A DNA stretch of 64,000 nt from Thermomonas carbonis (GTDB lineage: Bacteria > Pseudomonadota > Gammaproteobacteria > Xanthomonadales > Xanthomonadaceae): contig NZ_CP060719.1 in NCBI RefSeq assembly GCF_014396975.1, forward strand, positions 1,398,001 through 1,462,000. The letters are read 5' to 3'. The position numbers and the translations under genes are program-made. Positions 11,716-27,968 of the stretch are shown here, in pieces; the stretch's first letter is position 1, and each line of letters begins with the position of its first letter. The notes below the pieces were generated by a model. The model searched no databases, was not told the origin of the DNA, and saw nothing but the letters and a program-made list of their open reading frames with translations.

Positions 11716-13032
11716 TCAGGGATCGCGCGCAGGCGCGGCACGCCAGACCGCATTCCCCACGTCATCGGCGACCAGGATCGCGCCGTCCGCCTGCACCGCG
11801 ATGCCAACCGGTCGACCGCGTGCATTGCCATCGGCATCTAGGAAGCCGGTGAGCAGTGATTGCATCGGTCCAGCGGGTCGTCCATCGCTGAATGGAACGA
11901 ATACGACTTCGTAACCGGTAGCGGGCCTGCGGTTCCACGAGCCATGCAGGCCGATGACGGCACCGGCGCGTCCGCCGCTCCAGACGCCTCCGGGCGAGAA
12001 CGCCAAACCCAAGGGTGCGACGTGGCTGCCGAGTGCGTAGTCCGGCTTGATCGCCTTGGCAACCAAATCGGGCTGCAGCGGCTTGACCCGCGGATCGAGA
12101 TTCTGTCCGTAGTAACTGTACGGCCAGCCGTAGAAGCCGCCTTCGCGCACTTCGGTCAGGTAGTCCGGAACCAGGTCGTTGCCGAGTTCGTCGCGCTCGT
12201 TGACCACGGCCCACAACGCACCACTACGCGGTGCGAACCCCAACCCGACCGGGTTGCGAAGTCCCGATGCGAATACCCGCATCGTGCCTGCGACCGGATT
12301 GACTTCAAGGACGGCGGCGCGGTTCGTTTCGACGGCCATGCCGTTCTCGCCGACATTGCTGTTGCTGCCCACGCCCACATACAGCAGCCGGCCATCGGCG
12401 CTGGGGATCAAGCTCTTGGTCCAGTGGTGGTTGAGTTCGTCGCCCTTGCCCGGCAGTGCGACAACGCGCCTGGGTTGCGCGGTGATCCGCGTGTCGCCGG
12501 CGCGATACGGAACCACCACCAGCGCATCGGCATTGGCCACGTAGAGGGAGTCGCCGATGAGGGCCATGCCGAACGGCGAATGCAGGCCGGTGAGGAAGGG
12601 TCGGGCGATTTCGGCGATGCCGTCGCCATCGACATCGCGCAGCAGGGTGATGCGGTCGGCACTGGGAACGCCCGCGCCGGCGCGTTTCATCACCGAGCCC
12701 ATCACCTTGCCCTTGATGCCCTTGACGCCACTCTTGCCGGGTGGCGCATTGGATTCCGCCACCAGCACGTCGCCATTGGGCAACACAAGCAGCCAGCGTG
12801 GATGCTGAAGGCCGGTGGCGAAACGGGTGACGCGCAGCCCTGCAGCGGGGATCGGTGCCGCATCGGCGGGCCAGCCGGTGGCGGGCGCGATCCTGACCGT
12901 GGGAAAGAGATTGCGTTCCGGCGGCGGCAGCATGGGATCCGGGCCGGTGCGCGCTTCCGGTGCCACCGATTGGCCAACTGCGCAGGCGGACGTCGCAAGA
13001 ACGAACGCGATCACTAGCGCCAGGGCACGCAT
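11716..13032 (-). CDS. PQQ-dependent sugar (L-sorbosone-type) dehydrogenase-like protein, exported
   Basis: 438-aa beta-propeller protein. The N-terminus MRALALVIAFVLATSACAVG is a signal peptide, possibly of a lipoprotein. Propeller motifs include LQHPRWLLVLPNGDVLVAES, LPGKGDELNHHWTKSLIPS, ASGLRNPVGLGFAP and GWPYSYYGQNLDPR, typical of sorbosone/soluble-glucose-dehydrogenase-like enzymes. Start 13032 is preferred over an in-frame ATG at 13089 because GGAG lies 10 nt upstream and the signal peptide starts there. The substrate is not known, and no PQQ biosynthesis genes are in the window. Confidence 0.87.
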   Translation of the reverse strand: MRALALVIAFVLATSACAVGQSVAPEARTGPDPMLPPPERNLFPTVRIAPATGWPADAAPIPAAGLRVTRFATGLQHPRWLLVLPNGDVLVAESNAPPGKSGVKGIKGKVMGSVMKRAGAGVPSADRITLLRDVDGDGIAEIARPFLTGLHSPFGMALIGDSLYVANADALVVVPYRAGDTRITAQPRRVVALPGKGDELNHHWTKSLIPSADGRLLYVGVGSNSNVGENGMAVETNRAAVLEVNPVAGTMRVFASGLRNPVGLGFAPRSGALWAVVNERDELGNDLVPDYLTEVREGGFYGWPYSYYGQNLDPRVKPLQPDLVAKAIKPDYALGSHVAPLGLAFSPGGVWSGGRAGAVIGLHGSWNRRPATGYEVVFVPFSDGRPAGPMQSLLTGFLDADGNARGRPVGIAVQADGAILVADDVGNAVWRAAPARDP

Positions 13033-13214
13033 GCTCAGGTATCTCCATGCAGCCGGTTGTTCCGGCCGCTTGTCATGCGAGAGCATCATTCACGCCGTGT
13101 CGCCCCGGGGTGAACTGGCCTGCACGACAGCATTCGACGGGCGATGCGCATGCCGGGAGGCTCATTCACGGATCGATGATCGAGACCGGCCCAATCTGGA
13201 CTCAACGCAGCCGG

Positions 13215-15791
13215 ATGACCGCGAAACGGATGGCACTGGACGACTATCGAGGCAAGCGCGAGTTCAAGTCGACGCCGGAACCCGTCGGGCGAGCGCGCAA
13301 GCGCACCGGCGCGCGACCGATCTTCGTGGTCCAACTGCACCACGCAAGTCATCGCCACTACGACTTCCGCCTGCAGGTGGGTGGCACGCTGAAAAGTTGG
13401 GCGGTGCCGAAAGGGCCGAGCTTGGATCCCCAGGTCAAGCGCATGGCGGTCGAGGTCGAGGATCATCCGCTCGACTACGCGGGCTTCGAAGGCGACATTC
13501 CGAAGGGCAACTACGGAGGCGGTCACGTCGCCGTCTTCGATCGCGGGACATGGACCACGGATCTGGATGTCGAGGCACAACTGGCGAAGGGACATCTGCG
13601 CTTCGAACTGCACGGCGAAAAGTTGAAGGGCGGTTGGCATCTGGTGCGATCGGGCAAGCCTGCGCGCCAGCCGCAGTGGCTGTTGTTCAAGCAGGACGAT
13701 GCGTGGGCCGGTTCTGGCGAGGCAGATGACATGCTGGACGATGTGGCACCCGCGCCAGCCGAAGACGCCAAGCGCGCGCGACGTCCGGGCACGAAGACCA
13801 AGACAGTGCGCAAGCCCCCTGCACCCACCAAGAAGCGAGCGCGCTCAGCGAACAGCGGCAAGAGCGATTGGCATGCCGAAGCACTCGAGCTGCCGGGCGC
13901 ACGCAGGCGCAAGCTGGCGGCAACACCGCCGGTACCCCAACTCGCCAAGCTGGTCGACGATCCACCCGACGGCGACGACTGGCTCCACGAACTCAAATGG
14001 GATGGTTACCGCCTGGTGTGCGCGATTCGCGCAGGCAAACCCAGCCTGTTGTCGCGCAATGCGCTCGACTGGAGCGAACGCGTTTCCGAAGTTCGCGATG
14101 CCATCGAACTGCTCGGATTGCAGGAGGCGGTGCTGGATGGCGAACTGGTGGCGGGACAGGGCAGTCGCGAGGATTTCAACGAACTCCAGCAGATCCTGTC
14201 CGGCGAAATACAGGGCACGTTGCGCTATGTCGTGTTCGACCTGCTGCATCTGGAAGGCGTGGATCTGTCGGAGGTGCCATTGCTGCGGCGCAAGCAGTTG
14301 CTCGAACGATTGCTGGCCACGGCACCGACGCGGTTGGCGTACAGCTCGCATGGCATCGGCAACCCGAGCGACGCGTTCAAGGCGGCGGTCGATGCCGGGT
14401 TCGAAGGCATCGTGTCCAAGCGCATCGACGCGACCGTGCATCCGGGTCGCAGCGATGCCTGGCGCAAGACCAAGGCGCTCGGCAGCGACGAATTCGCGGT
14501 GGTCGGCTACACGCCGCCGAAGGGGTCGCGAACCGGCATTGGTGCGCTGCTGCTGGCGACGCCCGACGAACAGCATGGCTGGCGCTACGTCGGGCGGGTC
14601 GGCAGCGGCTTCAACGACGCGCAACTCGCGTCGTTGGGCAAGCGCTTGCAGGGAAAGGGCTCCACGAAGCCCAGCGTGCATGTGCCGGAGAACGACACCG
14701 ACCTGCGGCAGGCGCGCTGGTTTCCGAAGCCGGCCTTCGTGGTGGAAGTGTTCACCCGCGGACTCGGCGGGCGCGGCTTGCTGCGGCAGGCAAGTTTCAA
14801 GGCTATGCGTGCTGACAAGACCGTTGCATCGCTGCATGACAGCGATCTCGGCACGGCGAGTGACAGCAAGACAACCGAGGCGAGGTCCGTGGCGAAAAAA
14901 CCGACCAAGTCCGTCCGCAAGACCGGCAAGGCCCGGCAGGCACCGGAACTGAGCAGTCCAGGCAAGCTGCTGTTTCCCGACAACGGCATCAGCAAGCAGA
15001 GCCTGGCCGACTACTACAGCGCCGTCATGGACTGGCTGTTGCCGGAGATTCGCGACCGACCGCTGTCGCTGGTGCGCTGTCCCAGCGGCATCGGTGCGCA
15101 GTGCTTTTTCCAGAAGCACGCCACGCCCGGCTTCGAACTGGTGTCGCTGGTCCCGGTCACCGAATCCGACGGCGGCAGTGAGGACTACTTGGCCGTCACC
15201 GATGCCGCCAGTGCCATGGAACTGGTGCAGTTCAACGCGATCGAGTTCCATCCGTGGGGCTCGAAGGTGGCCGATCTCGAGCATGCGGATCGGTTGGTCT
15301 TCGACCTCGATCCCGACGAGGCGGTGGCGTGGAAGGACGTCATCGTCGCGGCGCGGCAGCTGCGCGATTTCTTGGAACAAGCGGGCCTGCAGTCGTTCGT
15401 GCGCACGAGCGGCGGCAAGGGCCTGCACTTGGTGGTGCCGCTGGCACCCGCCGCACCGTGGGAACGTGCGCGCGCCTTTTCGCAGGCGGTCGCGGAGGCC
15501 GCCCGCGAGATGGATCCGCTGCGCTACATCGCCACCGCTTCGAAGCAGAAGCGCAAGGGCAAGATCTTCATCGACTGGCTGCGAAACGGGCGCGGTGCGA
15601 CCAGCATCGCCAGCTTTTCGGTGCGCGCACGCCCGGGTGCACCGGTGGCGATGCCGCTGCGCTGGGAGGAACTCGGCAAGGTCGCCAGCGGCCATGCCTT
15701 CGACATACGCAATGTGCCGGCACGATTGAAGCGGCTGAAGTCGCATCCCTGGGAGGGCATCGAGAAGGTACGCCAGTCGTTGCCGGACTAA
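13215..15791 (+). CDS. ligD: ATP-dependent DNA ligase LigD (PE-LIG-POL) for NHEJ
   Basis: Multidomain end-joining enzyme of 858 aa. The order is phosphoesterase (residues 30-160; FVVQLHHASHRHYDFRLQVG and PKGNYGGG), a Lys/Pro-rich linker, ATP-dependent ligase (240-540; adenylated Lys261 in ELKWDGYR, then LDGELVAG and EGIVSKR), linker, and archaeo-eukaryotic primase-like polymerase (570-850; LLFPDNGISKQ, metal Asp697/Asp699 in FDLDPDEAV). This is the Pseudomonas domain order, not the mycobacterial one. The start may be ATG 13176, 13215 or 13230; 13230 begins the conserved MALDDYRGK. It is directly upstream of ku. Confidence 0.94.
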   Translation: MTAKRMALDDYRGKREFKSTPEPVGRARKRTGARPIFVVQLHHASHRHYDFRLQVGGTLKSWAVPKGPSLDPQVKRMAVEVEDHPLDYAGFEGDIPKGNYGGGHVAVFDRGTWTTDLDVEAQLAKGHLRFELHGEKLKGGWHLVRSGKPARQPQWLLFKQDDAWAGSGEADDMLDDVAPAPAEDAKRARRPGTKTKTVRKPPAPTKKRARSANSGKSDWHAEALELPGARRRKLAATPPVPQLAKLVDDPPDGDDWLHELKWDGYRLVCAIRAGKPSLLSRNALDWSERVSEVRDAIELLGLQEAVLDGELVAGQGSREDFNELQQILSGEIQGTLRYVVFDLLHLEGVDLSEVPLLRRKQLLERLLATAPTRLAYSSHGIGNPSDAFKAAVDAGFEGIVSKRIDATVHPGRSDAWRKTKALGSDEFAVVGYTPPKGSRTGIGALLLATPDEQHGWRYVGRVGSGFNDAQLASLGKRLQGKGSTKPSVHVPENDTDLRQARWFPKPAFVVEVFTRGLGGRGLLRQASFKAMRADKTVASLHDSDLGTASDSKTTEARSVAKKPTKSVRKTGKARQAPELSSPGKLLFPDNGISKQSLADYYSAVMDWLLPEIRDRPLSLVRCPSGIGAQCFFQKHATPGFELVSLVPVTESDGGSEDYLAVTDAASAMELVQFNAIEFHPWGSKVADLEHADRLVFDLDPDEAVAWKDVIVAARQLRDFLEQAGLQSFVRTSGGKGLHLVVPLAPAAPWERARAFSQAVAEAAREMDPLRYIATASKQKRKGKIFIDWLRNGRGATSIASFSVRARPGAPVAMPLRWEELGKVASGHAFDIRNVPARLKRLKSHPWEGIEKVRQSLPD

Positions 15792-15862
15792 GGACGTCGA
15801 CAAGGCCGTGACACCGCCCGGTGCAGGCTCGGGATCCTGTCCCCGTCAATGAGTCCCTCGCC

Positions 15863-16714
15863 ATGGCCCGACCCATCTGGACCGGAAACCTGTCGTTCGG
15901 CCTGCTCAACGTCCCGGTGTCGCTGATGTCGGGCACGCGCAGCACCGACCTGTCCTTCCGCATGCTCGACGCGCGCGATCGCAAGCCGATCCGCTTCGAG
16001 CGGGTGAATGCGGACACCGGGGAGGAAGTGCCGTGGAAGGAGATCATCAAGGCCTTCGAGTACGACAAGGGCAGCTATGTCGTCATCGAAAAGGAGGACA
16101 TCGCCTCCGCCGCGCCGGAAACCCATGAATCGGTGGAGATCGAGACCTTCGTCGACGAGGACGCGATCGACGTCCGCTTCTTCGAGAAGCCGTACGTGCT
16201 GGTGCCGGGCAAGAAGGCGGAAAAGGGCTATGTGCTGCTGCGCGAGACGTTGAAGAAGGCGAAGAAGATCGGCGTGGCGCGGGTGGTGATCCGCACGCGC
16301 GAATATCTTTCGGCGGTCATGCCGCTGGGCGATGCGCTTGTGCTGGTGCTGATGCGCTATCCGCAGGAACTGGTGGATCCCGTCGAGTACAAGCTTCCGG
16401 CCGGCAAGGCCAGCACCTACCGGATCGCGCCCAAGGAACTGGCGATGGCCACCCAGCTGGTGGATTCGATGGCGAGCAAGTGGAACCCGGAGGATTACCA
16501 CGACGAGTTCCGCACGCGGTTGTCGGAGATCATCCGCAAGCGCATCAAGCAGAAGGGCAAGACCACCAAGGTGCTCGACGAGGCGGAGGACGCCGCGGAA
16601 GGGACCGCGACGAACGTGGTCGATTTCGTCTCGCTGCTGCAAAAGAGCCTGGGCGAGAAGGGCGGCAAGTCCACGAAGCCCGCGAAGTCGGCCAAACCAC
16701 GCAAGAGCGCATGA
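15863..16714 (+). CDS. ku: Non-homologous end-joining protein Ku
   Basis: 283-aa bacterial Ku, a ring-forming homodimer that binds DNA ends and recruits LigD. It begins MARPIWTGNLSFGLLNVPVS, the canonical Ku N-terminus, and contains GEEVPWKEIIKAFEYDKGSY and ALVLVLMRYPQELVD. The C-terminus is a Lys-rich tail (KGGKSTKPAKSAKPRKSA), typical of bacterial Ku extensions that interact with DNA. It sits 71 bp after ligD in the same direction, so the NHEJ pair is complete. Its stop overlaps an ATG (ATGA at 16711) in frame with the next gene. Confidence 0.95.
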   Translation: MARPIWTGNLSFGLLNVPVSLMSGTRSTDLSFRMLDARDRKPIRFERVNADTGEEVPWKEIIKAFEYDKGSYVVIEKEDIASAAPETHESVEIETFVDEDAIDVRFFEKPYVLVPGKKAEKGYVLLRETLKKAKKIGVARVVIRTREYLSAVMPLGDALVLVLMRYPQELVDPVEYKLPAGKASTYRIAPKELAMATQLVDSMASKWNPEDYHDEFRTRLSEIIRKRIKQKGKTTKVLDEAEDAAEGTATNVVDFVSLLQKSLGEKGGKSTKPAKSAKPRKSA

Positions 16715-17922: not shown

Positions 17923-18753
17923 ATGCTCAAGCCGCTCGCAGCCCTCTGTTTGCTGTCGCTCGCAACACCTGCCCTCGCCGGCGAATGCGAGGCGAACTTC
18001 AAGAAGTCCGGCAATCCGCTGGTGATGACCACCTGGAGCAGTGCGGTCACTGTGCCGAACCTGTCCACCCGCGATGCGCTGGCACAGATGCGCGGGATCC
18101 TGGTGGCCGAGAAGATGGACGTGATGGCCGAGGATGCCGACGGTGGCACCTTGCTGGTGGAGCAGCGCCAGGACAAGGCCGCGCGACCGATCCCGACCAC
18201 CATCACGGTGAGCGAGGTGGCCTCCGGCACCCGCATCGAGATGGCGGTGAAGATGGAGCGCGGCGTGTTTTCCAAGGCCGAGCAGATCCAGCCCTACATG
18301 TGCGGCCTGTTCGCCAAGGTCAAGGGCGGCAAGGAAGGGATTGCAGCGGCCAGGAAGGGCGCGGGTGCGTCCAACAACGAGGCCACCGGCAACCAGGACG
18401 TCTTCATCTTTTCGCGGATGATCGCGGGCGAGGCCAACAAGAACGCGATCGCGGTGAACGCGCGCCACAAGGGTCGCAAGTACACACTCACCGGGCGTAT
18501 CGAAATCCTGATGGAGGATGGCGAGGACTACAACCTGATTTTCGACATTCCCGAGATCAGCGAGATGGCACTCAAGCCGTTGCCGTTCGATGCGCAGTTC
18601 AAGGTCAGTGTGTCCTGCCTGTTCAAGCCGAACCAGCTGACCACCGTGCTCGCCTTGCGCGAAGGCCAGAAGGTGACCCTGACCGGGACCGTGAAGCGCT
18701 ATGACGACATCAGGCGGGTGATCTGGCTGGAGAACTGCGTCAAGGCCAAATGA
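17923..18753 (+). CDS. Exported protein with C-terminal OB-fold (tRNA_anti-like)
   Basis: 276-aa protein with a signal peptide (MLKPLAALCLLSLATPALAG). The mature N-terminal half is a mixed alpha/beta domain of unknown type. The C-terminal part resembles the OB-fold tRNA_anti-like domain found in exported proteins: KVTLTGTVKRYDDIRRVIWL ends in ENC. Cys residues near the mature N-terminus, at PYMCG, at SVSCLF and at ENC could form disulfides. A TAGGAT -10-like box lies near 17876. It stands alone between the SDR gene and the convergent DoxX gene. Function unknown. Confidence 0.7.
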   Translation: MLKPLAALCLLSLATPALAGECEANFKKSGNPLVMTTWSSAVTVPNLSTRDALAQMRGILVAEKMDVMAEDADGGTLLVEQRQDKAARPIPTTITVSEVASGTRIEMAVKMERGVFSKAEQIQPYMCGLFAKVKGGKEGIAAARKGAGASNNEATGNQDVFIFSRMIAGEANKNAIAVNARHKGRKYTLTGRIEILMEDGEDYNLIFDIPEISEMALKPLPFDAQFKVSVSCLFKPNQLTTVLALREGQKVTLTGTVKRYDDIRRVIWLENCVKAK

Positions 18754-18771
18754 CCTGCAGCGGCAGCGGCC

Positions 18772-19275
18772 TCAGCGCCGATGGCGCCGTGCCAGGAAGT
18801 GATCCAGGCTGGCCTTGCCGGGGCCGGCCATCAATAGCCAGAACAGCACGGCGACGTACAGCACTTCGTCCAGTTCGACGAATTCGTTCACCGTGGAAAT
18901 GGTCGGCAGCACCACCACCGCCAACGCCACCAGCATGTTCACGATCATCGGCACTGCAGCCAGGCGCGTCCACAGGCCGACGATCAGCAACCCGCCGCCG
19001 ATGAGGTCGGTGGCGCCGGACAGGGTGGCGCTGAGCAGCGGGAACGGGATGCCCCACTCGACGAAACGGGCGGAAAAGAACTCGAGGTTGTGCAGCTTCG
19101 CCCAGCCGGTTTCCAGCCAGAAGTAACCGAACACCAGCCGCAGCAGCAGCGGACCCAGCCACTCGTACGCAAGCATGCGGTCATGGAGCATGTCGAGCAT
19201 GCGCATCGCGGGGCTGGACGGTGCCGTCCCGGCGGCGCGTGCGCGCCGGTTCGCATAAGTGGCGCAACCTTGCAT
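18772..19275 (-). CDS. DoxX-family membrane protein, last gene of the bufferin operon
   Basis: 167-aa membrane protein with four hydrophobic segments and DoxX hallmarks (LLLRLVFGYFWLETGWAKLH, then GIPFPLLSATLSGATDLIGG). DoxX-type proteins are frequent fourth members of MNIO/bufferin (gig, hvf) operons, where they are thought to take part in membrane redox or export steps; this is inferred. Start ATG 19275 has GAGGA 8 nt upstream; an internal ATG at 19206 is less likely. It begins 10 bp after bufC ends. Confidence 0.85.
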   Translation of the reverse strand: MQGCATYANRRARAAGTAPSSPAMRMLDMLHDRMLAYEWLGPLLLRLVFGYFWLETGWAKLHNLEFFSARFVEWGIPFPLLSATLSGATDLIGGGLLIVGLWTRLAAVPMIVNMLVALAVVVLPTISTVNEFVELDEVLYVAVLFWLLMAGPGKASLDHFLARRHRR

Positions 19276-19285
19276 GGGTGTGTCC

Positions 19286-20080
19286 TCAATCAGGATGGGA
19301 GTGGAAGACGTCGGCAGCGAGCACGCCGTCGGCAAGCCAGCGCTTGAGCAGGCTGGCGGCACGCAGGGCGCCGTCGGCGTGGCGTGCGTGCGATCGTTCG
19401 CACAAGCGGGCGAAGGTGTCGCCGCACTGGATGGCCTGCAGGGCCTCGGCTTCGTCGAGGTCGAGCCTCCGCCAGTGCACGTCGGCCGCGTTGCGCCACA
19501 GCAGCCAGTGCGTGGTCGCGCGATCACGCAGTCGCGGCAGCGGCAGGCCGCGCGCGCGTGCATCGACCACGTCGGCTGCATTGGTGCGCAGTGCGAGCAG
19601 GCGTGTTGCGGGATGCAGTTTCAGCTGCAATGCAGGCCAGGACTGTGCGGGCAGCGTGGCGATGGCATCGAACCCGAGCGCATCCGCATCCGCGGCATCG
19701 AACACCTCGCCCTGCTGCCATTCGAAACGGGCGAGATCGCTGATCTTGCGCGGCACCTCGCGACGCGACGCCAGCCAGTCGGCGAACGCGTGTCCGAAGT
19801 GCCGAACGGACGGTCGCGTGGAGGGATGCGCGCGCAGGTACGCATCGGCGAGCGCATCGAACCGCGCGTCACCGAGTACGGCCTGGGTTGCCGGATAGTC
19901 CTGGCCGAGGACGTCGGCCAGGCGCAGTCGATAGGCATCGGCGTAGATGCGCAGGCGATCGTCGCGGGTTTCGCCATGCAGGCGCGCTGGGTCGATGGCA
20001 CCGGCGAAGCCGGCATCGCCATGCAGCAGCCAGGCCTGCATCGCCGACTGGCGCTGCTGCAAGGTCGGCACCGCGTTCAT
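19286..20080 (-). CDS. bufC: BufC/HvfC-type protein (DUF2063), partner of the MNIO enzyme
   Basis: 264-aa protein of the DUF2063 family. The N-terminal region contains LQQRQSAMQAWLLHG and LRIYADAYRLRLADVLGQDY; further on it has RFEWQQGEVFDAADA and the family's LWRNAADVHWRRLDLDEAEA. In characterised systems the partner forms a complex with the DUF692 MNIO enzyme and helps bind the precursor's leader. Its ATG overlaps the bufB stop (ATGA at 20077-20080), implying coupled translation and roughly equal amounts of the two proteins. Confidence 0.86.
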   Translation of the reverse strand: MNAVPTLQQRQSAMQAWLLHGDAGFAGAIDPARLHGETRDDRLRIYADAYRLRLADVLGQDYPATQAVLGDARFDALADAYLRAHPSTRPSVRHFGHAFADWLASRREVPRKISDLARFEWQQGEVFDAADADALGFDAIATLPAQSWPALQLKLHPATRLLALRTNAADVVDARARGLPLPRLRDRATTHWLLWRNAADVHWRRLDLDEAEALQAIQCGDTFARLCERSHARHADGALRAASLLKRWLADGVLAADVFHSHPD

Positions 20081-20928
20081 GCGGCGATTGCCTGCCGCGC
20101 ATCGCTGGCGATGCGGCGGGCGATGTCGAGTTCCTGCAACAGGTCGTGCAGCGGCGGGATATCGTCGTCGCGCTCGATCATCGTCGGTACTTCGCCGAAG
20201 CGACGCAACGCGTGCGCATACAGCGCCCACACGCCGTCGCAGACCGCGGCGTCGTGGGTATCGATCAGCAGGCCGGAGCCGAGCGCGTCCTCGCTGTGCC
20301 CGGCAAGATGGAGTTGTTTCACTGCGTGTCGCGGCAAGGCATCGAGATAGGCGGCCGCATCGATGCCGTGGTTGTGCGCGTTGACGTAGACGTTGTTGAT
20401 GTCGAGCAGCAGGCCGCAGCCGCTCGCTTGGACGAGCGCGCACAGGAATTCGGCTTCGCCCAGGGTGTCGCCGGCGAAGCGCAGGTAGCTGGACACGTTC
20501 TCCAGCACCAGTTGCCTGCCCAGCGCGTCCTGCACCTGCTGCACGCGCGCGGCGACATGGGCGAGGGTTGCCTCGTCGCGCGGCAGTGGCAACAGGTCGT
20601 GCAGTTGCACGCCGTCATGGCGCGACCAGCACAGGTGATCGGAGATCAAGGCGGGCCGCACCCGCTTCGCGAGTGCCGACAGCGCACGCAGGTACTCGCG
20701 GTCGAGCGGGTCGCTGCCGCCGATGTTCAGCGCCACCCCGTGCATCGCCAGTGGCCAGCGTTCGGCGATGCGGTCGAGCATCGCGAGCGGGCGGCCGCCA
20801 TCGACCAGGTAGTTCTCGCTGACGATCTCCAGCCAGTCGACGACGTTGCGGTCGGCCGACAGCAAGGCGTCGTAGTGCTGCGGGCGCAGGCCCAGGCCAA
20901 AGCCTTGCAGGGGGCTATTCATCGGCAT
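20077..20928 (-). CDS. bufB: MNIO-family RiPP-modifying enzyme (DUF692, BufB/HvfB)
   Basis: 283-aa multinuclear non-haem iron oxidase with a TIM-barrel fold. Candidate metal ligands are present in the expected order: Glu in WLEIVSENYL, His in AMHGVALNIGG, Asp-His in ISDHLCWS, Glu in LVLENVSSYL, Asp/Asn/His in LLLDINNVYVNAHNHG, His in QLHLAGH, Asp-x-His in IDTHDAAV, and Glu in MIERDDDIPP. Known homologues oxidise Cys of the precursor to copper-binding heterocycles such as oxazolone/thioamide or thiooxazole. The start may be 20928 (MPMNS) or 20922 (MNS). It lies directly downstream of the Cys-rich precursor. Confidence 0.92.
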   Translation of the reverse strand: MPMNSPLQGFGLGLRPQHYDALLSADRNVVDWLEIVSENYLVDGGRPLAMLDRIAERWPLAMHGVALNIGGSDPLDREYLRALSALAKRVRPALISDHLCWSRHDGVQLHDLLPLPRDEATLAHVAARVQQVQDALGRQLVLENVSSYLRFAGDTLGEAEFLCALVQASGCGLLLDINNVYVNAHNHGIDAAAYLDALPRHAVKQLHLAGHSEDALGSGLLIDTHDAAVCDGVWALYAHALRRFGEVPTMIERDDDIPPLHDLLQELDIARRIASDARQAIAA

Positions 20929-20942
20929 GTCCGGTGAGGTGG

Positions 20943-20967
20943 GCGCGCCCGTTCGGCACGGGCGCGC
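20943..20967 (-). promoter_or_regulatory. Intercistronic GC-rich stem-loop between bufA and bufB
   Basis: A perfect 10-bp stem (GCGCGCCCGT / ACGGGCGCGC) with a 5-nt loop occupies most of the 49-bp gap between the precursor stop and the enzyme start. No T tract follows. Such a structure would be expected to attenuate readthrough or protect the upstream mRNA, so that more precursor than enzyme is made. Inference only. Confidence 0.7.
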
Positions 20968-20977
20968 TGGCGGAGGC

Positions 20978-21268
20978 TCAGGCCTTCTTCGCTTCCGGCT
21001 TGGCCGGCTTGGGCATCTCGAACTTGCCGCCGGCGACCTTGCAGTCCTTGGCATTGGTTGCGGTGAAGCCCTGGCCCTTGCAGGCGTTCTGGCCCTTGCA
21101 CGCATTCGCGGCGCTCTTGCATGCGCCGTGGCCCTTGCAGGCGTTGGCACCCATGCAATGACCGGTCTTGGCGGTGCCGGTCTCGCCGGCATTGGCGATG
21201 GGCGCACCCATGAACAGCGCGGCGGCGGCGATGGCGAGCGACAAGCCGGAAACGGTGGTGGTCTTCAT
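20978..21268 (-). CDS. bufA: Bufferin-type metallophore precursor (BufA2-like), exported Cys-rich peptide
   Basis: 96-aa RiPP precursor. A signal peptide (residues 1-27, ending PIANA) is followed by a Cys/Gly/Lys/Asn repeat region with six Cys (38, 44, 50, 57, 63, 76). Its pattern is CMGANACKGHGACK then NACKGQNACKGQGF, and the tail is rich in Lys/Pro/Ala. This is the periplasmic bufferin layout: the signal peptide doubles as leader, and Cys are modified by the adjacent MNIO enzyme before export. Modified bufferins bind copper and protect against metal excess. It is the first gene of the operon, divergent from an AraC regulator. Confidence 0.88.
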   Translation of the reverse strand: MKTTTVSGLSLAIAAAALFMGAPIANAGETGTAKTGHCMGANACKGHGACKSAANACKGQNACKGQGFTATNAKDCKVAGGKFEMPKPAKPEAKKA

Positions 21269-21354
21269 GCGGGGATCCTCGGTTCGGAAGGGAGTTGGGG
21301 CGCCGCAGGGGGAGGTCCGCGGCGCCTGTGTATTCCATCCGGATGCGGGCAAGC

Positions 21355-21393
21355 GGAATATCCCGCGAGTCCGGGGGATATGCCCCGCGTCCG
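21355..21393. promoter_or_regulatory. Tandem 19-bp operator-like direct repeat between bufA and the AraC gene
   Basis: GGAATATCCCGCGAGTCCG (21355-21373) and GGGATATGCCCCGCGTCCG (21375-21393) match at 15 of 19 positions and start 20 bp apart, about two helical turns. AraC-family dimers often bind such half-site pairs. A TACACA -10-like hexamer for bufA (21327-21332 on the minus strand) places the repeat next to its -35 position, as in class II activation. Binding is inferred. Confidence 0.55.
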
Positions 21394-21481
21394 CAGGTGC
21401 GATGCGTTCCAGCGGTCGTGGACGCGCGCGCATGAAACACCGGGCGAACGGTCATGGCCGGCAACGCGGGGCTGGCCTAGG

Positions 21482-22411
21482 ATGCAAGCCGTGGACACCC
21501 TTCCCGACAGCGCGGCCCTCGACATCGATCGCGACAACGTGCTCGAGACCGTGCTCGGCGCATATCGCATGCGCGTCGAGATCACCGCCGACGTGCGCTA
21601 CTGCGGCACCTGGTACGACCAGGAGCCGGCCACGCGCCATGGCCAGTTCCACCTGCTCACCGAGGGCACGTGCTGGGTCAGTGGCGCCGCGCTGGACACG
21701 CCGGTGCAACTGCATCGCGGCGACCTGATCGTGTTCCCCGCCGGCGTGCGCCACCTGCTGTCGTCGAGCGCGGATGCGCACCTGCCCACGTCCAACGAAA
21801 TCGAGCCGGACGACACCGCGATGCTGTGCGGCGAACTGGAATTCATCACCGGCACCAGCAACCCGATCTTCAACGCGCTGCCCGCGTATTTCGTGGTGCG
21901 ATCCGACGCCAGCAGCGACGGCTTCCGCCAGCTCGCGGCGATGCTCACCGAAACCAGCCGCGACCGCCGCTGGGGCCGGCAACTGGTGCAGAACAAGCTG
22001 GCCGATTCGCTGTTCACCATGGCCGTCTGCGAATACGTGCGCTGCGCCGATCGCCCGCGCGGCTTGCTTGCCGCGCTGACCGATGCGCGGTTGTCGCGCG
22101 CGCTGGCCGCGGTGCACGAACGCCCCGGCCAGGACTGGACGATCCAGTCGATGGCGCAGCAGGCCAACATGTCGCGCACCGCCTTCGCCGAACTGTTCAC
22201 CGCCACGGTCGGCGTGCCGCCGATCCAGTACCTGGCGCAATGGCGGGCGACCGAGGCGCGTCGACTGCTGCGGAACCGGCGTTTCTCGGTGGGCGCGATC
22301 GCGGAGATGCTGGGCTATCGCAGCGAGGCCGCATTCCGGCGTTTCTTCAAGCGCATGGAAGGGATCGGCCCGGGCAAGGCGCGCAGCGGCGGCGATGACG
22401 CGGATCCCTGA
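21482..22411 (+). CDS. AraC-family transcriptional regulator (cupin_6 sensor), likely regulator of the bufferin operon
   Basis: 309-aa regulator. The N-terminal AraC cupin_6 domain (about 15-195) includes TWYDQEPATRHGQFHLLTEG and HRGDLIVFPAGVRHLL. The C-terminal AraC DNA-binding domain has two helix-turn-helices (WTIQSMAQQANMSRTAFAEL and FSVGAIAEMLGYRSEAAFRR). It lies back to back with bufA across a 213-bp control region holding a tandem repeat. An alternative GTG start at 21491 lies 7 nt after a TAGGAT -10-like box, which would make the mRNA leaderless. The ligand is not evident; a role in metal or redox response is inferred from position. Confidence 0.88.
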   Translation: MQAVDTLPDSAALDIDRDNVLETVLGAYRMRVEITADVRYCGTWYDQEPATRHGQFHLLTEGTCWVSGAALDTPVQLHRGDLIVFPAGVRHLLSSSADAHLPTSNEIEPDDTAMLCGELEFITGTSNPIFNALPAYFVVRSDASSDGFRQLAAMLTETSRDRRWGRQLVQNKLADSLFTMAVCEYVRCADRPRGLLAALTDARLSRALAAVHERPGQDWTIQSMAQQANMSRTAFAELFTATVGVPPIQYLAQWRATEARRLLRNRRFSVGAIAEMLGYRSEAAFRRFFKRMEGIGPGKARSGGDDADP

Positions 22412-22561: not shown

Positions 22562-23569
22562 ATGCACCACCTGCACCGCGCCGGCGCGATCGCGCTGGCC
22601 ACTCTTCTGCTTGCCGCATGCGGTGCCGCGCCGGGCCCGGACGCCGCCATCTCCTCGGCATCGCCCGCGGCCAACGCATCGGCGGACGCGCAGGTGGCGG
22701 ATGATGCCGATGCATTGCGCGAACGCGCGCGCCAGGCGATGCAGGCCTCGCGGATGTTCGCGCCGGCGGGCGACAACGCGCTGGAGCATTACCTCGCCCT
22801 GCGCGCCCAGGCAGCGGACGATGCGAGCGTGCGCGCCGCATTGGTCGACCTGCAGCCGCAGCTGGTGATCGCGATCGAGCAGGCGATCGCACGCGGCGAA
22901 TACCCCGAAAGCCGTCGATTGCTGGACTTGCTGGCGCGCGCGGATACGCAAGCGCCCGCGTTGCCGCGGCTGCGCGAAACCGTGGCCAGCGCCGAGACCG
23001 CTGCGCGCGATCGCGAGCTCGCGGTGGACGCCGAGACACGCGCCGAGGCCGAGCGCGCCGAAGCGGAACTCCGCCGCGTCGCCCAGGAAAATGCCACCCG
23101 CCTGGCCACAGAACGCGGCAACGCACCGGTGCGTCCTTCGCAGCCATCGGCGACCGGCAATCCCGCACCGTCGCAGCCCACCGCGACCAGCGTCGTGCCC
23201 GCTGCAGATGCACCCGCCCGCACCGTGGCCACGCCGCCGGCAAGACCGGTGGAAGCACCGCGTCCTGCGCCGCCACCGGTCCAGCAGGTCGCGGCATCGA
23301 TGCCAGCACCGTCGCCGGCGAAACTGCTGCGCGACGTCGCCCCGCGCTATCCGGAGGGCGCGTTGCGCCAGCGCCAGTCCGGGCAGGTGCAGGTCGCGTT
23401 CACCATCAATGCGCAGGGCGGCGTGGAGTCGCCGCGAGTGGTGTCATCGGATCTGCCGACTGCGTTCGATCGCGCGGCACTCGCTGCGGCGTCGCGCTGG
23501 AAGTTCGAGGCCACCGGCGGCAGCCAGCCGGGTTCGCGCACGGTGCGTTTCGATCCGCCGGGCGGCTGA
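22562..23569 (+). CDS. TonB C-terminal domain lipoprotein
   Basis: 335-aa periplasmic protein. The signal sequence ends in a lipobox (LLAAC, Cys20), so it is lipid-anchored rather than carrying the single TM helix usual for TonB. A helical, Ala/Glu/Arg-rich stretch (about 55-185) and a long Pro/Ala linker (about 190-255) follow. The final part is a TonB-C-type domain (LLRDVAPRYPEGALRQRQSG, then VQVAFTINAQGGVESPRVV and FDRAALAAASRWKF). No ExbB/ExbD genes are nearby, so energy transduction is doubtful. GGGGGAAC precedes the ATG. Confidence 0.82.
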   Translation: MHHLHRAGAIALATLLLAACGAAPGPDAAISSASPAANASADAQVADDADALRERARQAMQASRMFAPAGDNALEHYLALRAQAADDASVRAALVDLQPQLVIAIEQAIARGEYPESRRLLDLLARADTQAPALPRLRETVASAETAARDRELAVDAETRAEAERAEAELRRVAQENATRLATERGNAPVRPSQPSATGNPAPSQPTATSVVPAADAPARTVATPPARPVEAPRPAPPPVQQVAASMPAPSPAKLLRDVAPRYPEGALRQRQSGQVQVAFTINAQGGVESPRVVSSDLPTAFDRAALAAASRWKFEATGGSQPGSRTVRFDPPGG

Positions 23570-23583
23570 GCCGCTCAGGCGAT

Positions 23584-24018
23584 TCAGGGTTCGACGATGT
23601 CGCCGTGCATCGGCGCGAGCCGCTTGAGCAGGCGGTTCTGCGTGCCCACCGGAACCTTGCGCACGGTCATCACCTCGATGAGGTCTTCGACCAGTGCGTT
23701 GAATTGCGCGTCGTCGATGTTGCGGCCGGCGTGCGATTCCTGCATCGACAGGCCACTGTAGGTGCACGGCCCATCCGACTCCGCGCAGAACTGCTCGATC
23801 AGCATGCTGCGCAGGCGGACGATGTCGGCATCGGCGAACTGGAAGTTGATCCGCTCGTCCTCGACGATCTTTTCCAGCAGGGCATCGACGATGCCTTCGA
23901 TGCCGGATGCGCCGCCGAGTTGGTCGTAGGTGGTGGCCTTGGGCGAGGTGGCACAGGCGGCCAGGAAGACCGACAGTGCCAACATCAGCCCAGCGCGATG
24001 GAGTGGATGCCGTGCCAT
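23584..24018 (-). CDS. Group 1 truncated haemoglobin, lipoprotein form
   Basis: 144-aa globin of the 2-on-2 type. A lipobox (FLAAC, near residue 22) makes it a predicted envelope lipoprotein, unusual for this cytosolic family. The globin domain starts YDQLGGASGIEGIVDALLEK, and the proximal His is in ESHAGRNIDDAQF. It is the last gene of an overlapping four-gene operon; its ATG shares a base with the DUF3034 stop (TGATG). Haem/O2/NO binding is expected but not shown. Confidence 0.8.
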   Translation of the reverse strand: MARHPLHRAGLMLALSVFLAACATSPKATTYDQLGGASGIEGIVDALLEKIVEDERINFQFADADIVRLRSMLIEQFCAESDGPCTYSGLSMQESHAGRNIDDAQFNALVEDLIEVMTVRKVPVGTQNRLLKRLAPMHGDIVEP

Positions 24019-24902
24019 CAGAACGACGCCTGCACGGAGAGGTAGGGGCCGCGCTGCTTGTCCAGCGTGGCGATCGAGCCGAGGTCGGCATACGCGGCGA
24101 CCACCGCGACATGCTTGTTCGGGAACCACGCGACGAAGGCGTCCTTCCAGTCGTCCTCGCGGGCGAAGCCGAGGTTGTCCGGCTTCTGCCGATACTCCAC
24201 GCCGACTGCCCACTGCGGATCCAGCAGCAGTGCCACCGAGGATTCCAGCACCAGCGAACGGCCGGCCCTGCGGTCGCCGCCGAAGCCGAGCAGGCCTGCC
24301 TGGTTCGCGCTGGTGCTGCGCAGGGTCGCGTTGACCAGCAGATGCCGATCGAAGGCCGCGGCCAGGAACAGCTTGCTGGCCGCGAGGTACACGTCGGTGC
24401 CACTGTCGTCACGCGCGCCGACCGCGGACGGGATCGCGAAATCAAGCTGGCGCTTGTGCTGAACGCCGAAGGAAATTTGCGGCATCGCGGTGTACAACAG
24501 GTCGCCGCCGAGGCGGACCTTGGCACCGATCACCTCGGCATCGAAGCGTCCCGTCGGCAAAGAAAGCCGACGTTGCAGTTCGCCCAACCCGAAGCGCTGC
24601 CGCGCATACGAGAGTTCGACCCGGTTGCGGAATGTGTAGGCGACACCCGCGGCATCCAGCGAGTAGTCGCCGGTATCGACGCGAGTCGCGAACGCGGTGC
24701 CGCCGTTTTGCGCATCGGTGCCGTAGCCGGACAACACCGCCCATGGCACCAGCCCGCCGCCCGCACTGCCCTCGAACTGGGTGGCACCGCCGGTCGCCAG
24801 CAGGCGGCCATCGGCGGCGATGGCGCAGGCCGGCATCGCGATCAACGCGGCAAGCGCGATGGCGAAGCGACGATGGCGCGGCAGGTGGTGGGCACGTGTC
24901 AT
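24018..24902 (-). CDS. DUF3034 family outer-membrane-type protein
   Basis: 294-aa exported protein with an N-terminal signal (to about residue 29, ACAIAADG). The rest is beta-rich, with alternating strands and a C-terminal Phe (GPYLSVQASF), the usual signature of outer-membrane barrels. Family hallmarks include LLATGGATQFEGSAGGGLVP at the mature N-terminus and FAREDDWKDAFVAWFPNKHV near the end. Function unknown. ATG overlaps the EAL gene stop (ATGA). Confidence 0.8.
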   Translation of the reverse strand: MTRAHHLPRHRRFAIALAALIAMPACAIAADGRLLATGGATQFEGSAGGGLVPWAVLSGYGTDAQNGGTAFATRVDTGDYSLDAAGVAYTFRNRVELSYARQRFGLGELQRRLSLPTGRFDAEVIGAKVRLGGDLLYTAMPQISFGVQHKRQLDFAIPSAVGARDDSGTDVYLAASKLFLAAAFDRHLLVNATLRSTSANQAGLLGFGGDRRAGRSLVLESSVALLLDPQWAVGVEYRQKPDNLGFAREDDWKDAFVAWFPNKHVAVVAAYADLGSIATLDKQRGPYLSVQASF

Positions 24903-27276
24903 GCGATCTGTTCGCTCCGCGTCGATGCGTTGGCCTGGAAGTCGTCATGCCAGCGACGGAAATCCTCCGCAGGCACCGGCTTCGAGAAGAAATAGCCCTG
25001 CACCATGTCGCAGTGCAGGCGTTGCAGGATTTCCAGCGAGCCGGACTGCTCCACGCCCTCGGCGATGACCACCAGGCCCATGTTGTGACCGATCTCGATC
25101 GCCGATCGCACGATCACGGTGTCCTCGGGGTTGGTGTCCAGGCGCATCACGAAACTCTTGTCGATCTTGATCTCGTCCACCGGCAGGCTGCGAAGTTGCG
25201 CCAGCGACGAATGGCCGGTGCCGAAGTCGTCGATCGACAGACGCACGCCCAGCGCGCGCAACGCGCGCATGGTGATCAGCGCCGACTGCACATCGCGCAT
25301 CACCGTGCTTTCGGTGATTTCCAGGATCAGTTCCTGTGCCGGGAAGCGATGCGCCTGCAGCAGGCCGGCCACGCGATCAGGCAAGCGCGCATCGAGCAGA
25401 TCCATCGGCGACAGGTTCACCGCCAGGCCGATCTCCAGTCCGTCCTCGCGCCACGCGGAGGCCTGCTGCAGGCCGGCAGCGAGCACGAAGGCGGTGATCT
25501 CGTGGATCAGGCCGCAATGCTCGGCCAGCGGGATGAATTCGTCCGGCGAGATCGTGCCCAGCGCCGGGTGCTGCCAGCGCAGCAGCGCTTCCGCATGGGC
25601 CACGCGGCCGCTGCGCAGGTCGACCTTGGGCTGGTAGAACACCCGCAGTTCGTCGCGCTCGCGCGCCCTGCGCAGGTCGCTGATCAGTCCGATCCGGCGC
25701 AGGTGGGTTTCGTCATGGCCGGTCTGGTAGACCGCGACCCGCCGCTGTGCCTGCTTGGCCTCGTACATGGCGATGTCGGCGCGGCGCAGCAGCGCATCCG
25801 CACTGGTCGCATGCAGCGGATACAGGGTCAGGCCGATGCTCGCGCCGATGCTGACCTGCGCCTGTCGTTCGCTGAGGTCCAGCGGCGCTTCCAGCGCGCG
25901 GATGATCGACCACGCGCGTTCCTGCGCGCTCGCTTGGTCGGTATCGCCGATCAGCACCAGGAATTCATCGCCGCCGAGCCGGGCCAGCCGGTCATCGCTG
26001 TCGATCGCATTGCGCAGGCGCCGCCCGACTTCCTCCAGCACGCTGTCGCCGAAGGCATGGCCCAGGGTGTCGTTGATTTCCTTGAACCTGTCGAGGTCGA
26101 GCAACAGCACCGCGCATCGGGTGTCGCTGCTGCGCGCGTGTTCGAGAGCGGCTTCGAGCAGGGACAGCGCATGCACCCGGTTGGGCAGGCCGGTCAGGGT
26201 GTCGTGCTGGGCCTGGTGGCGGATCCGCTGTTCGCGTTCGGCGATGCCGCCCTGCATGCGATTGAACGCATTGGCGAGGTCCGACAACTCATCGTCGCCC
26301 GCGACGGCCAGGTTTTCCGCGTAGTCGCCGGCTTCGATCCGCCGTGCGGCATCGGCCAGCCGCGCCACCGGGCGGGTCACGCTGCGGCCCACGACCACAG
26401 ACACCACCAGCGCCAGCAAGGCGGCCAGCGTGGCCAGCAGCATGATTTGCCGCTTCAGCTGCTGGTACGGCTGCATGGCTGCGTCCACGCCGGCCAGCAA
26501 GAGCACATCGATCCTGCCCGGGTGCGCGGGTCGGCCGGGGTGATGCCGGCGTGGAACTGCTGCTCGCCCAGCGCGATGCGGGTGCGCTCGCGCGGCAGTG
26601 CGGGCAGTTGCGCTAATGCGTTTGCGGATTCGATGTCCAGGCTGCTGGCGACCAGCCGCCAACCTTGCGCCTCGCGCGCGCCGATCGCCGCATCCAGTCC
26701 GGTCAGCGAGTGGTAGTCGCGTGCTTCGCGCGCGCCGAACAAGCGGCCCATCGCCACCCAGCCGATCAGCCGCGGCGCCAGGACCGGCACCACCACCAGC
26801 GAATACGGTTTGTCGCCGAGTTCGACCACGCCCGCGCTGCTGCCTTGCGTGCGCGCCGCCTCCAGCAACGGTGCCAACGCGACGGCTTGCGCGGTCTCGT
26901 CGCCGTCCAGTGTGCTGGTCTGCAGCTTGCCGTCGACATCCAGCAACAGCGACGCATCCGCACCCATGCGTTGCCCGTGGTTGAGCAAGGCGGACAGCAC
27001 GGTTGAGGCATCGCCGGTGGCCAAGGCCTCGCGGAAGGCGAAGTCCGATGCCAGCGCACCGACCGCCAGCGTCAGTTCCTGTCCGCGGTCGCGTTGCAAT
27101 TGCCGCCAGACCTTCTCGCCCACGTCGATGCGTTCGGCCAGTTGCCGATGCACGTCGCGATTCACCGCGACATCGACGATCAGCAGCGTGGCCAGCTGCA
27201 TCAGCACCAGGATCGCGACCAGCACTACCACGATCCGCGCACCGAAGCTGAGCCGGCCGATCCCCGGCACTCTCAC
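24899..27276 (-). pseudogene. Membrane GGDEF/EAL c-di-GMP protein, frameshifted in this sequence
   Basis: Would encode about 790 aa. It has TM1 (residues 10-32), a periplasmic sensor domain, TM2, HAMP (VTRPVARLADAARRIEAGDY), GGDEF with intact RLGGDEF, and EAL with AEALLRW and DDFGTGHSS. Both catalytic motifs look complete, so cyclase or phosphodiesterase activity is possible. The frame breaks near 26517-26522, where one C (plus strand) appears missing from a C/G run. Restoring it joins ITPADPRT to RIDVLLLAGVDAA. The GTG start (27276) overlaps the cupredoxin gene stop as GTGA. A sequencing error is plausible. Confidence 0.8.
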
Positions 27277-27968
27277 CGATTGTCCTTGAGCTTGCGGAAT
27301 TTTTCCTGCAGCGCGCGCAGCTTGTCGTCGGCCGGCGCGGTCGCTTCCGGGGTGGCCACCAACGACAGCGACACGGCCCGCTCGAGCGGTGCATCCGCCA
27401 GCACGATGCGCTCCTCGTGCAAGGTGCCGCCTTTCAGTCCCGGGTGCCAGACCCGCAAGGTGTAAGTGCCGGCGGGCGCGTCGATGCGGCCCAGGCCACG
27501 GGCATCGGTGATCGCGTGATGCGGCGTGTCCAGCACGACCACGTAGGCCAGCATCCAGTCGTGGATGTTGCAGCCCAGTTCGACCACGCCCGGCGTGGCG
27601 AACACCACCGGCGCGGCGGGCTTGCCCGAGTACAGCGGCAACTCGAAGCGCTTGGCAGGCGAGAACGAATACACCTGGTGGCGCACGTTGTCGCTGTTGG
27701 GGAACACCACCGGCGTGCCCACGGTGACCACCGTGACCCGCGGCACGAACTGACTCTCGCGCTGGTCGATGGTGCCGCGTCCGGCGCGGGTCGCTGCCAC
27801 CGCCGCCGGCGAATGCAGGCTGACCACCGCATCCGCGGCCGGCGCGCCCTGGCCGGTGACCACGACCTGCAACCTGGCTGCGTGCACGCTGCCGGCGAAA
27901 CCGCACGCCAGCGTGCACAACGCAGCGATGCTGCGTGCGTTGCGCACGGATCCATTGTTCGATGCCAA
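27273..27968 (-). CDS. Exported cupredoxin-like protein ('methylamine utilization' type)
   Basis: 231-aa periplasmic protein with a signal peptide (to about residue 30) and two beta domains. The cupredoxin part has the type 1 copper ligand order: His in DNVRHQVYSFSP, Cys and His in VELGCNIHDWM, and Met. A carboxypeptidase-regulatory-like Ig fold follows (AGTYTLRVWHPGLKGG). No methylamine dehydrogenase genes are nearby, so the database name should not be read as function. It is the first gene of the operon with GGDEF/EAL, DUF3034 and globin, so it may deliver a copper or redox signal. Confidence 0.8.
   Translation of the reverse strand: MASNNGSVRNARSIAALCTLACGFAGSVHAARLQVVVTGQGAPAADAVVSLHSPAAVAATRAGRGTIDQRESQFVPRVTVVTVGTPVVFPNSDNVRHQVYSFSPAKRFELPLYSGKPAAPVVFATPGVVELGCNIHDWMLAYVVVLDTPHHAITDARGLGRIDAPAGTYTLRVWHPGLKGGTLHEERIVLADAPLERAVSLSLVATPEATAPADDKLRALQEKFRKLKDNR

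Follow-up and report, generated by a model that had tools for sequence, protein, structure and literature searches.

Does a bufferin operon of the Buf2 type carry its own transcriptional switch? The question is raised by the genome of Thermomonas carbonis, in a stretch of 64,000 nt (NZ_CP060719.1; hereafter the window) in which bufA, bufB, bufC, and doxX lie in this order on the minus strand (21268 to 18772), next to a divergently oriented gene for an AraC-family regulator. In sequence, the biosynthetic genes are those of an ordinary Buf2 bufferin, a known kind; what appears to be new is a regulatory variant, in which a linked AraC regulator and a predicted operator accompany that core. Given the conserved linkage and the promoter motif described below, it is highly probable that this Buf2-type bufferin operon has an AraC-family activator of its own.

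Linkage of the AraC-family regulator to the operon

The regulator combines a Cupin_6 sensor domain (PF12852) with an AraC-type helix-turn-helix domain (PF12833), and its structural model (predicted local distance difference test score [pLDDT], 84.6) matches AraC-family structures. A scan of named genomes returned 19 regulator loci, of which 16 were taken as orthologs (69 to 81% identity) and the other three shared 22 to 33% identity. The bufABC-doxX genes divergently adjoin the regulator at 13 of the 16 ortholog loci, the exceptions being Solimonas terrae (L024), Hydrocarboniphaga daqingensis (L025), and a metagenome-assembled genome of Hydrocarboniphaga (L033; labels with L or G are our own). 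Among 79 relatives, the regulator (E ≤ 1e-60) was found in 6 and BufA2 over the model cut-off in 10, and all 6 regulator genomes possess BufA2. The same association was found among 398 genomes of the order (regulator threshold, E ≤ 1e-80; best 5 candidates per genome scored): the regulator is present in 20 and BufA2 over the cut-off in 76, and each of the 20 regulator genomes has BufA2 on the same contig and adjoining the regulator (hypergeometric P of 4e-16 for co-occurrence, relatedness ignored). In a class-level sample the regulator (E ≤ 1e-60; best 6 candidates per genome scored) was found in 2 of 369 genomes, that of T. carbonis included.

Two arrangements occur among these 20 genomes. 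Six are divergent, with 229 to 285 bp between bufA and the regulator gene, and 14 carry both genes on the same strand, with bufA upstream and 1,819 to 1,903 bp from the regulator, a distance expected for the order bufA-bufB-bufC-araC, which was directly seen in L062. Regulators of the same-strand type are 47 to 52% identical to that of the window. Neither of the outer neighbors of the locus (17923 to 18753 and the TonB-like gene at 22562 to 23569) was found by tblastn in L018 to L033 (flanks of up to 5 kb), so the shared araC-buf block is not simple synteny. What these comparisons establish is a conserved unit of araC and bufABC, joined by doxX in the divergent type. A preliminary description of the locus had suggested that the co-located AraC regulator may mark a distinct variant, and this suggestion is borne out by the linkage counts and by the motif counts given below.

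A predicted operator upstream of bufA

Alignment of 16 bufA-araC gaps revealed conserved central blocks: a pair of direct repeats oriented toward bufA and, oriented toward araC, an inverted copy. In the window, the tandem half-sites sit 91 bp upstream of the bufA start. The 14 promoters of the same-strand type share a CGGACG-N4-GGCA core ahead of bufA, and inverted copies lie upstream of this core. When 300-bp segments that end close to the bufA start were scored, CGGACG-N4-GGCA was present in 19/19 divergent-linked and 14/14 same-strand-linked operons and in 0/31 unlinked BufA2 operons, and a stricter form of the motif was present in 15/19, 8/14, and 0/31, respectively. Excluded from the linked set are G100 and two repeats; the unlinked set consists of 27 BufA2 loci from one search and four from the 79-relative set, most other BufA2 genomes lying outside it. 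In the 27 unlinked operons that were checked, no relative of the regulator (tblastn, E ≤ 1e-5) was found in the flanks of bufA, searched to about 4 kb downstream and 1.5 kb upstream; the remaining four include G042, in which a distant AraC protein (31% identity) is encoded close by. A control within single genomes is provided by L116, L117, and L121, whose unlinked second BufA2 operons are without the motif and whose linked operons have it. In the promoters compared, the motif accompanies the regulator.

The two-half-site pattern has a single match in the T. carbonis genome, and this match lies in the bufA-araC gap. Across 119 genomes it yielded 8 sites in 7 genomes, 7 of the 8 in a bufA-araC gap, and the reversed pattern, searched in the same genomes as a control, yielded 0 matches. 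Five of the 7 matching genomes gave or match sequences of the alignment (the window, L006, L008, G006 [matching L018], and G020 [matching L023]), and another, G102, is apparently of the same species as L030. G093, which stands outside the alignment, was matched by the pattern and carries the full regulator-bufABC-doxX unit. The inverted half-site near the araC start predicts autoregulation of the regulator. A wider regulon in the T. carbonis genome was also considered: a fixed-gap pattern with up to 3 mismatches gave 6 matches versus 3 for its reversed control and was treated as noise, and this search missed the shortened site of the window itself.

Precursor, modifying enzymes, and intercistronic hairpin

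The preliminary description had placed a complete bufferin-type operon here, and all four genes are found where it put them (Table 1), as supported by the curated BufA2 and BufB models, the gene order, and the predicted fold of BufC. Its reading of a 4-base ATGA overlap between bufB and bufC agrees with the coordinates, and the fourth gene does encode a DoxX-family protein (PF07681; 57.6 bits; E, 2e-15). A gap of 55 bp separates bufA from bufB, and one of 10 bases separates bufC from doxX.

Table 1. Genes and predicted regulatory elements of the bufferin locus (window coordinates)
Feature	Position	Strand	Basis
bufA2, bufferin precursor, 96 aa	20978..21268	-	NCBIfam NF050166; alignment of 18 BufA
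bufB, MNIO (DUF692) maturase, 281 aa	20077..20922	-	NF050167; PF05114; 3BWW match; ERDD motif
bufC, DUF2063 partner (PME type 1), 264 aa, predicted RRE-like C-terminal half	19286..20080	-	PF09836; structural model; Foldseek
doxX, HvfX-like DoxX-family membrane protein, 167 aa	18772..19275	-	PF07681; NF050144 under cut-off
Hairpin between bufA and bufB	20923..20977	-	Shuffles; gaps of relatives
araC-family regulator (Cupin_6 + HTH_18), divergent from bufA	21482..22411	+	PF12852; PF12833; linkage; Cys alignments
Predicted tandem operator half-sites facing bufA (CGGACG..GGCAT / GGAC..GGGAT)	21360..21393	-	Alignment; pattern searches
Predicted inverted operator half-site facing araC (GGACG..GCAT)	21420..21434	+	Alignment

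BufA scored 84.8 bits against the BufA2 model NF050166 (cut-off, 60; E, 3.4e-24). Its N terminus, MKTTTVSGLSLAIAAAALFMGAPIANA, is by eye typical of a Sec-like signal and ends in ANA. An exported peptide with six cysteines in a repeated CxGxNxCKG pattern had been described; the six cysteines (positions 38, 44, 50, 57, 63, and 76) stand, but the literal pattern does not run throughout and occurs only twice. The constant element is rather CK, with Lys following C44, C50, C57, and C63 in 18/18 aligned BufA sequences; the first Cys is never followed by Lys and the last only sometimes. Full-length BufA proteins of relatives have six cysteines each (1 of the 18 alignment rows ends before the sixth). 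The spacing of the cysteines and a long Lys/Pro/Ala tail, both put forward earlier as marks of a variant, were rejected as such: the same six cysteines and spacing are the norm among the aligned relatives, and the tail comprises about 11 residues and varies in length and content. We predict that C44, C50, C57, and C63 are the modified sites, with a mass change of about -4 Da each and about -16 Da in total. A disulfide between C38 and C76 is predicted by analogy, because in Buf1 the outer cysteines are so paired and the central ones modified (PMC12452194; here and below, statements on published work refer to the portions of the cited papers that were consulted).

BufB scored 382.8 bits against NF050167 (cut-off, 310; E, 7e-115) and is related to the solved MNIO structures 3BWW (E, 6e-55), the DUF692 chain of TglHI, and MbnB. 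In its IERDD motif, which is kept in 18/18 aligned BufB sequences, D252 falls at the catalytic-base position and D253 at the substrate-selectivity position. The latter position is Asp in Cys-Lys (BufA2-type) MNIOs and Phe in the Lys-Cys group (FonB Phe250), and BufB D253 has the Asp in place of FonB Phe250 by which Cys-Lys captophorins are recognized (PMC13097082). An internal control is given by the second MNIO of the same genome, which adjoins an EGKCG precursor and reads ERDF. This second cluster (L066:3759-5824; C1:3413758-3415823) encodes an EGKCG-repeat precursor with EF-hands and a partner with DUF2063 and NGO1945_C domains, and it adjoins genes of phosphate-transport type, as named by reading the open reading frames (ORFs). 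Elsewhere, L058 and L059 each have two BufB-BufC-like pairs within a few kilobases, beside a BufA2 gene, and L059 additionally encodes a distant AraC protein (31% identity) in the vicinity.

BufC belongs to DUF2063 (PF09836; 79.5 bits; E, 2e-22). A sequence search against the PDB gave no match for it at E ≤ 1, and only a fold search gave one: the best Foldseek match of its AlphaFold model (pLDDT, 90.3) is 3DEE (NGO1945; E, 9e-7; TM-score, 0.76 by target length). Next among the fold matches come two TglHI entries, each by its chain A; this chain is presumably the TglI partner, since BufB matches chain D of one of these entries. The Pfam C-terminal model NGO1945_C was absent among BufC matches at E values of up to 1, so the RRE-like half is assigned by predicted fold only.

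The gap between bufA and bufB contains a hairpin with a 10-bp GC stem and a 5-nt loop and without a T run, whose z score was -3.36, -3.05, and -2.4 in three sets of shuffles. A helix of at least 8 pairs occurs in 41 of 46 distinct bufA-bufB gaps, drawn from linked and unlinked operons, and 30 of the 46 have a z score of ≤ -2 (median, -2.53; 6 loci could not be measured in this free-energy survey). The hairpin therefore looks like a common Buf2 feature. Only 8/46 gaps stand out by helix length (matched by ≤ 5% of shuffles), the stem sequences differ between lineages, and the short gaps (22 to 25 nt) of L019, L021, and L079 are without a hairpin. A perfect-stem test, in which 25/48 gaps had a stem of ≥ 8 and 2 were too long for measuring, was discarded as too strict. 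The hairpin plausibly sets the stoichiometry of precursor to enzyme, and we predict that it is a leaky attenuator or a protector of the mRNA 3' end.

Outside the buf genes, the window encodes a bacterial end-joining pair (12960 to 16714, plus strand), in which LigD (primase-polymerase, phosphoesterase, and ligase) adjoins Ku, and a HAMP-GGDEF-EAL protein adjoining a DUF3034 protein (24018 to 27394, minus strand), all by Pfam. The gene just downstream of the regulator (22562 to 23569, plus strand) encodes a protein with a TonB C-terminal domain and was not found with the buf unit in L018 to L033.

Sensing, alternative readings, and known systems

The regulator has cysteines at positions 41, 64, 116, 183, and 188. 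Its best NCBIfam model is RclR (NF040475), with 99.4 bits against a cut-off of 400; by this model it falls outside RclR, although its mode of action may be similar. RclR is activated by a Cys21-Cys89 disulfide, responds to hypochlorous acid (HOCl) through these cysteines, and has as a target RclA, a Cu(II) reductase (PMC7464077). In a first alignment of 31 regulators and Escherichia coli RclR (L126), C41 and C116 align with Cys21 and Cys89 and are invariant (32/32). In a second alignment C116 still pairs with Cys89, but Cys21 lies three columns from C41, which leaves the match between these two uncertain. Paralog L128, the one further Cupin_6 regulator found in the T. carbonis genome, has Cys at the places of C41 and C116 and none at those of C64 and C183. 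The latter two are present in 31/31 regulators and absent from RclR and from the paralog. Because the paralog has the former pair only, C41 and C116 are not particular to the regulator clade, and C64 and C183 mark it. An RclR-type pair specific to the bufferin regulator was accordingly dropped, as the paralog has both cysteines and the second alignment shifts Cys21.

In the mechanism that we propose, BufB and BufC would act on pre-BufA in the cytoplasm and oxidize its four central Cys-Lys cysteines, with 5-thiooxazoles as the most likely products, and C38 and C76 would form a disulfide as in Buf1. Sec would export the modified BufA, which would hold excess copper in the periplasm, and DoxX would supply some accessory function; for this operon, we infer that BufA is modified, exported, and able to bind copper. 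The regulator would sense copper and/or thiol oxidants through its cysteines. By binding the direct CGGACG-N4-GGCA repeats that precede bufA, as well as the inverted copy close to the araC start, it would activate both genes, and the hairpin after bufA would lower bufBCX expression relative to the precursor. A broader proposal is that an RclR-like AraC clade is the switch of one Buf2 branch in Xanthomonadaceae and related families, reading copper and/or oxidants through RclR-type cysteines together with C64 and C183 and acting through CGGACG-N4-GGCA in both gene arrangements. We advance it tentatively, as having slightly less than an even chance of being right.

Several observations weigh against the proposed reading of the locus. 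S. terrae and H. daqingensis have regulators 71 to 76% identical to that of the window and no BufA2 match in the genome, and L033 has only doxX beside the regulator, with BufA2 elsewhere in the genome (61.2 bits). The regulator is for these reasons not strictly dedicated to bufferin, and in L024 and L025 it possibly has a second role. In the 398 genomes, the strict two-half-site pattern finds 3/6 divergent-type gaps, missing those of G775, G791, and G100, and off-site matches occur in G102 and G775, of one genus. The two half-sites of the window are each 1 bp shorter than in the pattern-matching buf loci of relatives (34 versus 36 bp for the two together), which may be a genuine difference or may stem from two short assembly indels in G/C runs. 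The loose form of the motif was written after both linked groups had been seen, and the unlinked control set is dominated by one genus. A promoter and terminator scan of 18700 to 21500 found nothing, no sigma-70-like promoter included. Evidence from the regulator's sequence for RclR-like sensing is weak. Two proteins of the core score below equivalog cut-offs, DoxX with 72.3 versus 80 bits against the HvfX model NF050144 and BufC with 54.5 versus 142 bits against the HvfC model NF050145; the names HvfC and HvfX are therefore avoided, and doxX is filed only as DoxX family.

Two of these points have further context. The genes next to the regulator in L024 and L025 are different ones, those of L025 including ORFs that resemble a Rieske-type oxygenase and an amidohydrolase (named by reading), and the off-site match of G102 adjoins msrAB-like genes (likewise named), the site being conserved in two species. 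A second target in this genus (g69; L056 and L077) was considered and rejected, as the G102 site lies inside an aminotransferase-like ORF and was read as a coding coincidence.

The regulator gene might be a chance or hitch-hiking neighbor that controls only itself or other genes, with bufA controlled otherwise. The two regulator genomes that lack BufA2 and the one with doxX only are in keeping with this, as is a half-site just upstream of the regulator, on the regulator's strand, in L025 and L033. But adjacency holds in 20/20 genomes across two gene arrangements, and the motif lies upstream of bufA in 33/33 linked and 0/31 unlinked operons. Moreover, the 14 same-strand regulators lie about 1.8 kb from bufA and therefore do not share the motif-bearing bufA promoter gap. 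We regard a chance neighbor as very improbable.

If the regulator does control bufA, what it reads is a separate matter. It might mainly be an oxidant switch of the hypochlorite type, with bufferin as part of an oxidant response and copper binding secondary. The best-scoring model, RclR, and the keeping of Cys89 and probably of Cys21 point this way, as does the overlap of oxidant and copper stress seen where HOCl-responsive RclR targets the Cu(II) reductase RclA (PMC7464077). Both cysteines, however, have counterparts in the paralog elsewhere in the genome, the Cys21 match depends on the alignment, and Caulobacter Buf2 is reported to have a function similar to that of Buf1, in copper homeostasis (PMC12452194). 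We consider a mainly oxidant-reading switch unlikely, although it merits serious attention. There is a small chance that the peptide handles another soft metal (gold, cadmium, or silver), with copper as a side substrate. The Legionella gig promoter responds to gold as well as copper (PMC5413113), and chromium and cadmium elicit a response of the Caulobacter sigma-F regulon, to which DUF2282-DUF692-DUF2063-DoxX genes belong (PMC3511200). Against this, the characterized thiooxazole peptides bind copper (PMC13097082; PMC12452194), and the sequence at the locus carries nothing that distinguishes metals.

Should control by the linked AraC regulator hold, bufferins would have a means of induction that does not depend on the sigma-F/NrsF pathway of Buf1. 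Loci that combine an MNIO with a DUF2063 partner are very common, numbering over 24,000 (PMC13097082). Sigma and anti-sigma genes have been reported with Buf1 and none in Buf2 clusters, in which further conserved genes occur in extremely low proportions (PMC12452194). The word AraC is absent from the main text of PMC12452194 and of PMC13097082, the latter mentioning unnamed transcriptional regulators in its Table S1. For a Legionella gig operon, a study that sought the regulator arrived at no more than a suggested role of RpoS (PMC5413113). Our literature searches, which did not reach supplementary tables, found no link between bufferins and AraC proteins, and it is for this reason that we call the locus a new regulatory variant. 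How Buf2 systems sense stress is unsettled in the literature consulted, and the question can be tested directly with the regulator gene, the predicted operator, and the two cysteines that are candidates for sensing. Suitable for this are culturable type strains, among them Pseudoxanthomonas sangjuensis DSM 28345 (L022), in which the complete unit comes with an exact match to the two-half-site pattern and with the hairpin. The motif also predicts which BufA2 operons belong to the AraC control circuit.

Among known systems, the closest are the Buf2 (Buf_6/12Cys) bufferins, the Cys-Lys captophorins, which have the same precursor family with six cysteines and NACKG-type motifs, the same MNIO and DUF2063 partner, the order bufABC followed by doxX, and Asp at the selectivity position of BufB; the window locus differs from Buf2 as published in its linked AraC-family regulator with its own motif. 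The second MNIO cluster of the same genome (L002/L066) has an MNIO and a DUF2063 partner in common with the window operon but differs in its precursor, which is of the EGKCG (oxazolin) type with EF-hands, and in its ERDF enzyme, and no relatives of the window's AraC or DoxX proteins were found by tblastn in the 8.5 kb around it. The Caulobacter sigma-F/NrsF Buf1 operon has the same four-gene core and Cys-dependent stress control, but its precursor is of DUF2282 and its control is by an extracytoplasmic function sigma factor and a membrane anti-sigma factor rather than by an AraC protein (PMC3511200). E. coli RclR, a hypochlorite sensor whose regulon touches copper chemistry, shares with the window regulator a cupin-type sensor and an AraC helix-turn-helix domain, with Cys89 conserved and Cys21 probably so, depending on the alignment; the two are 27% identical, and the window regulator has the additional invariant cysteines 64 and 183 and different target genes.

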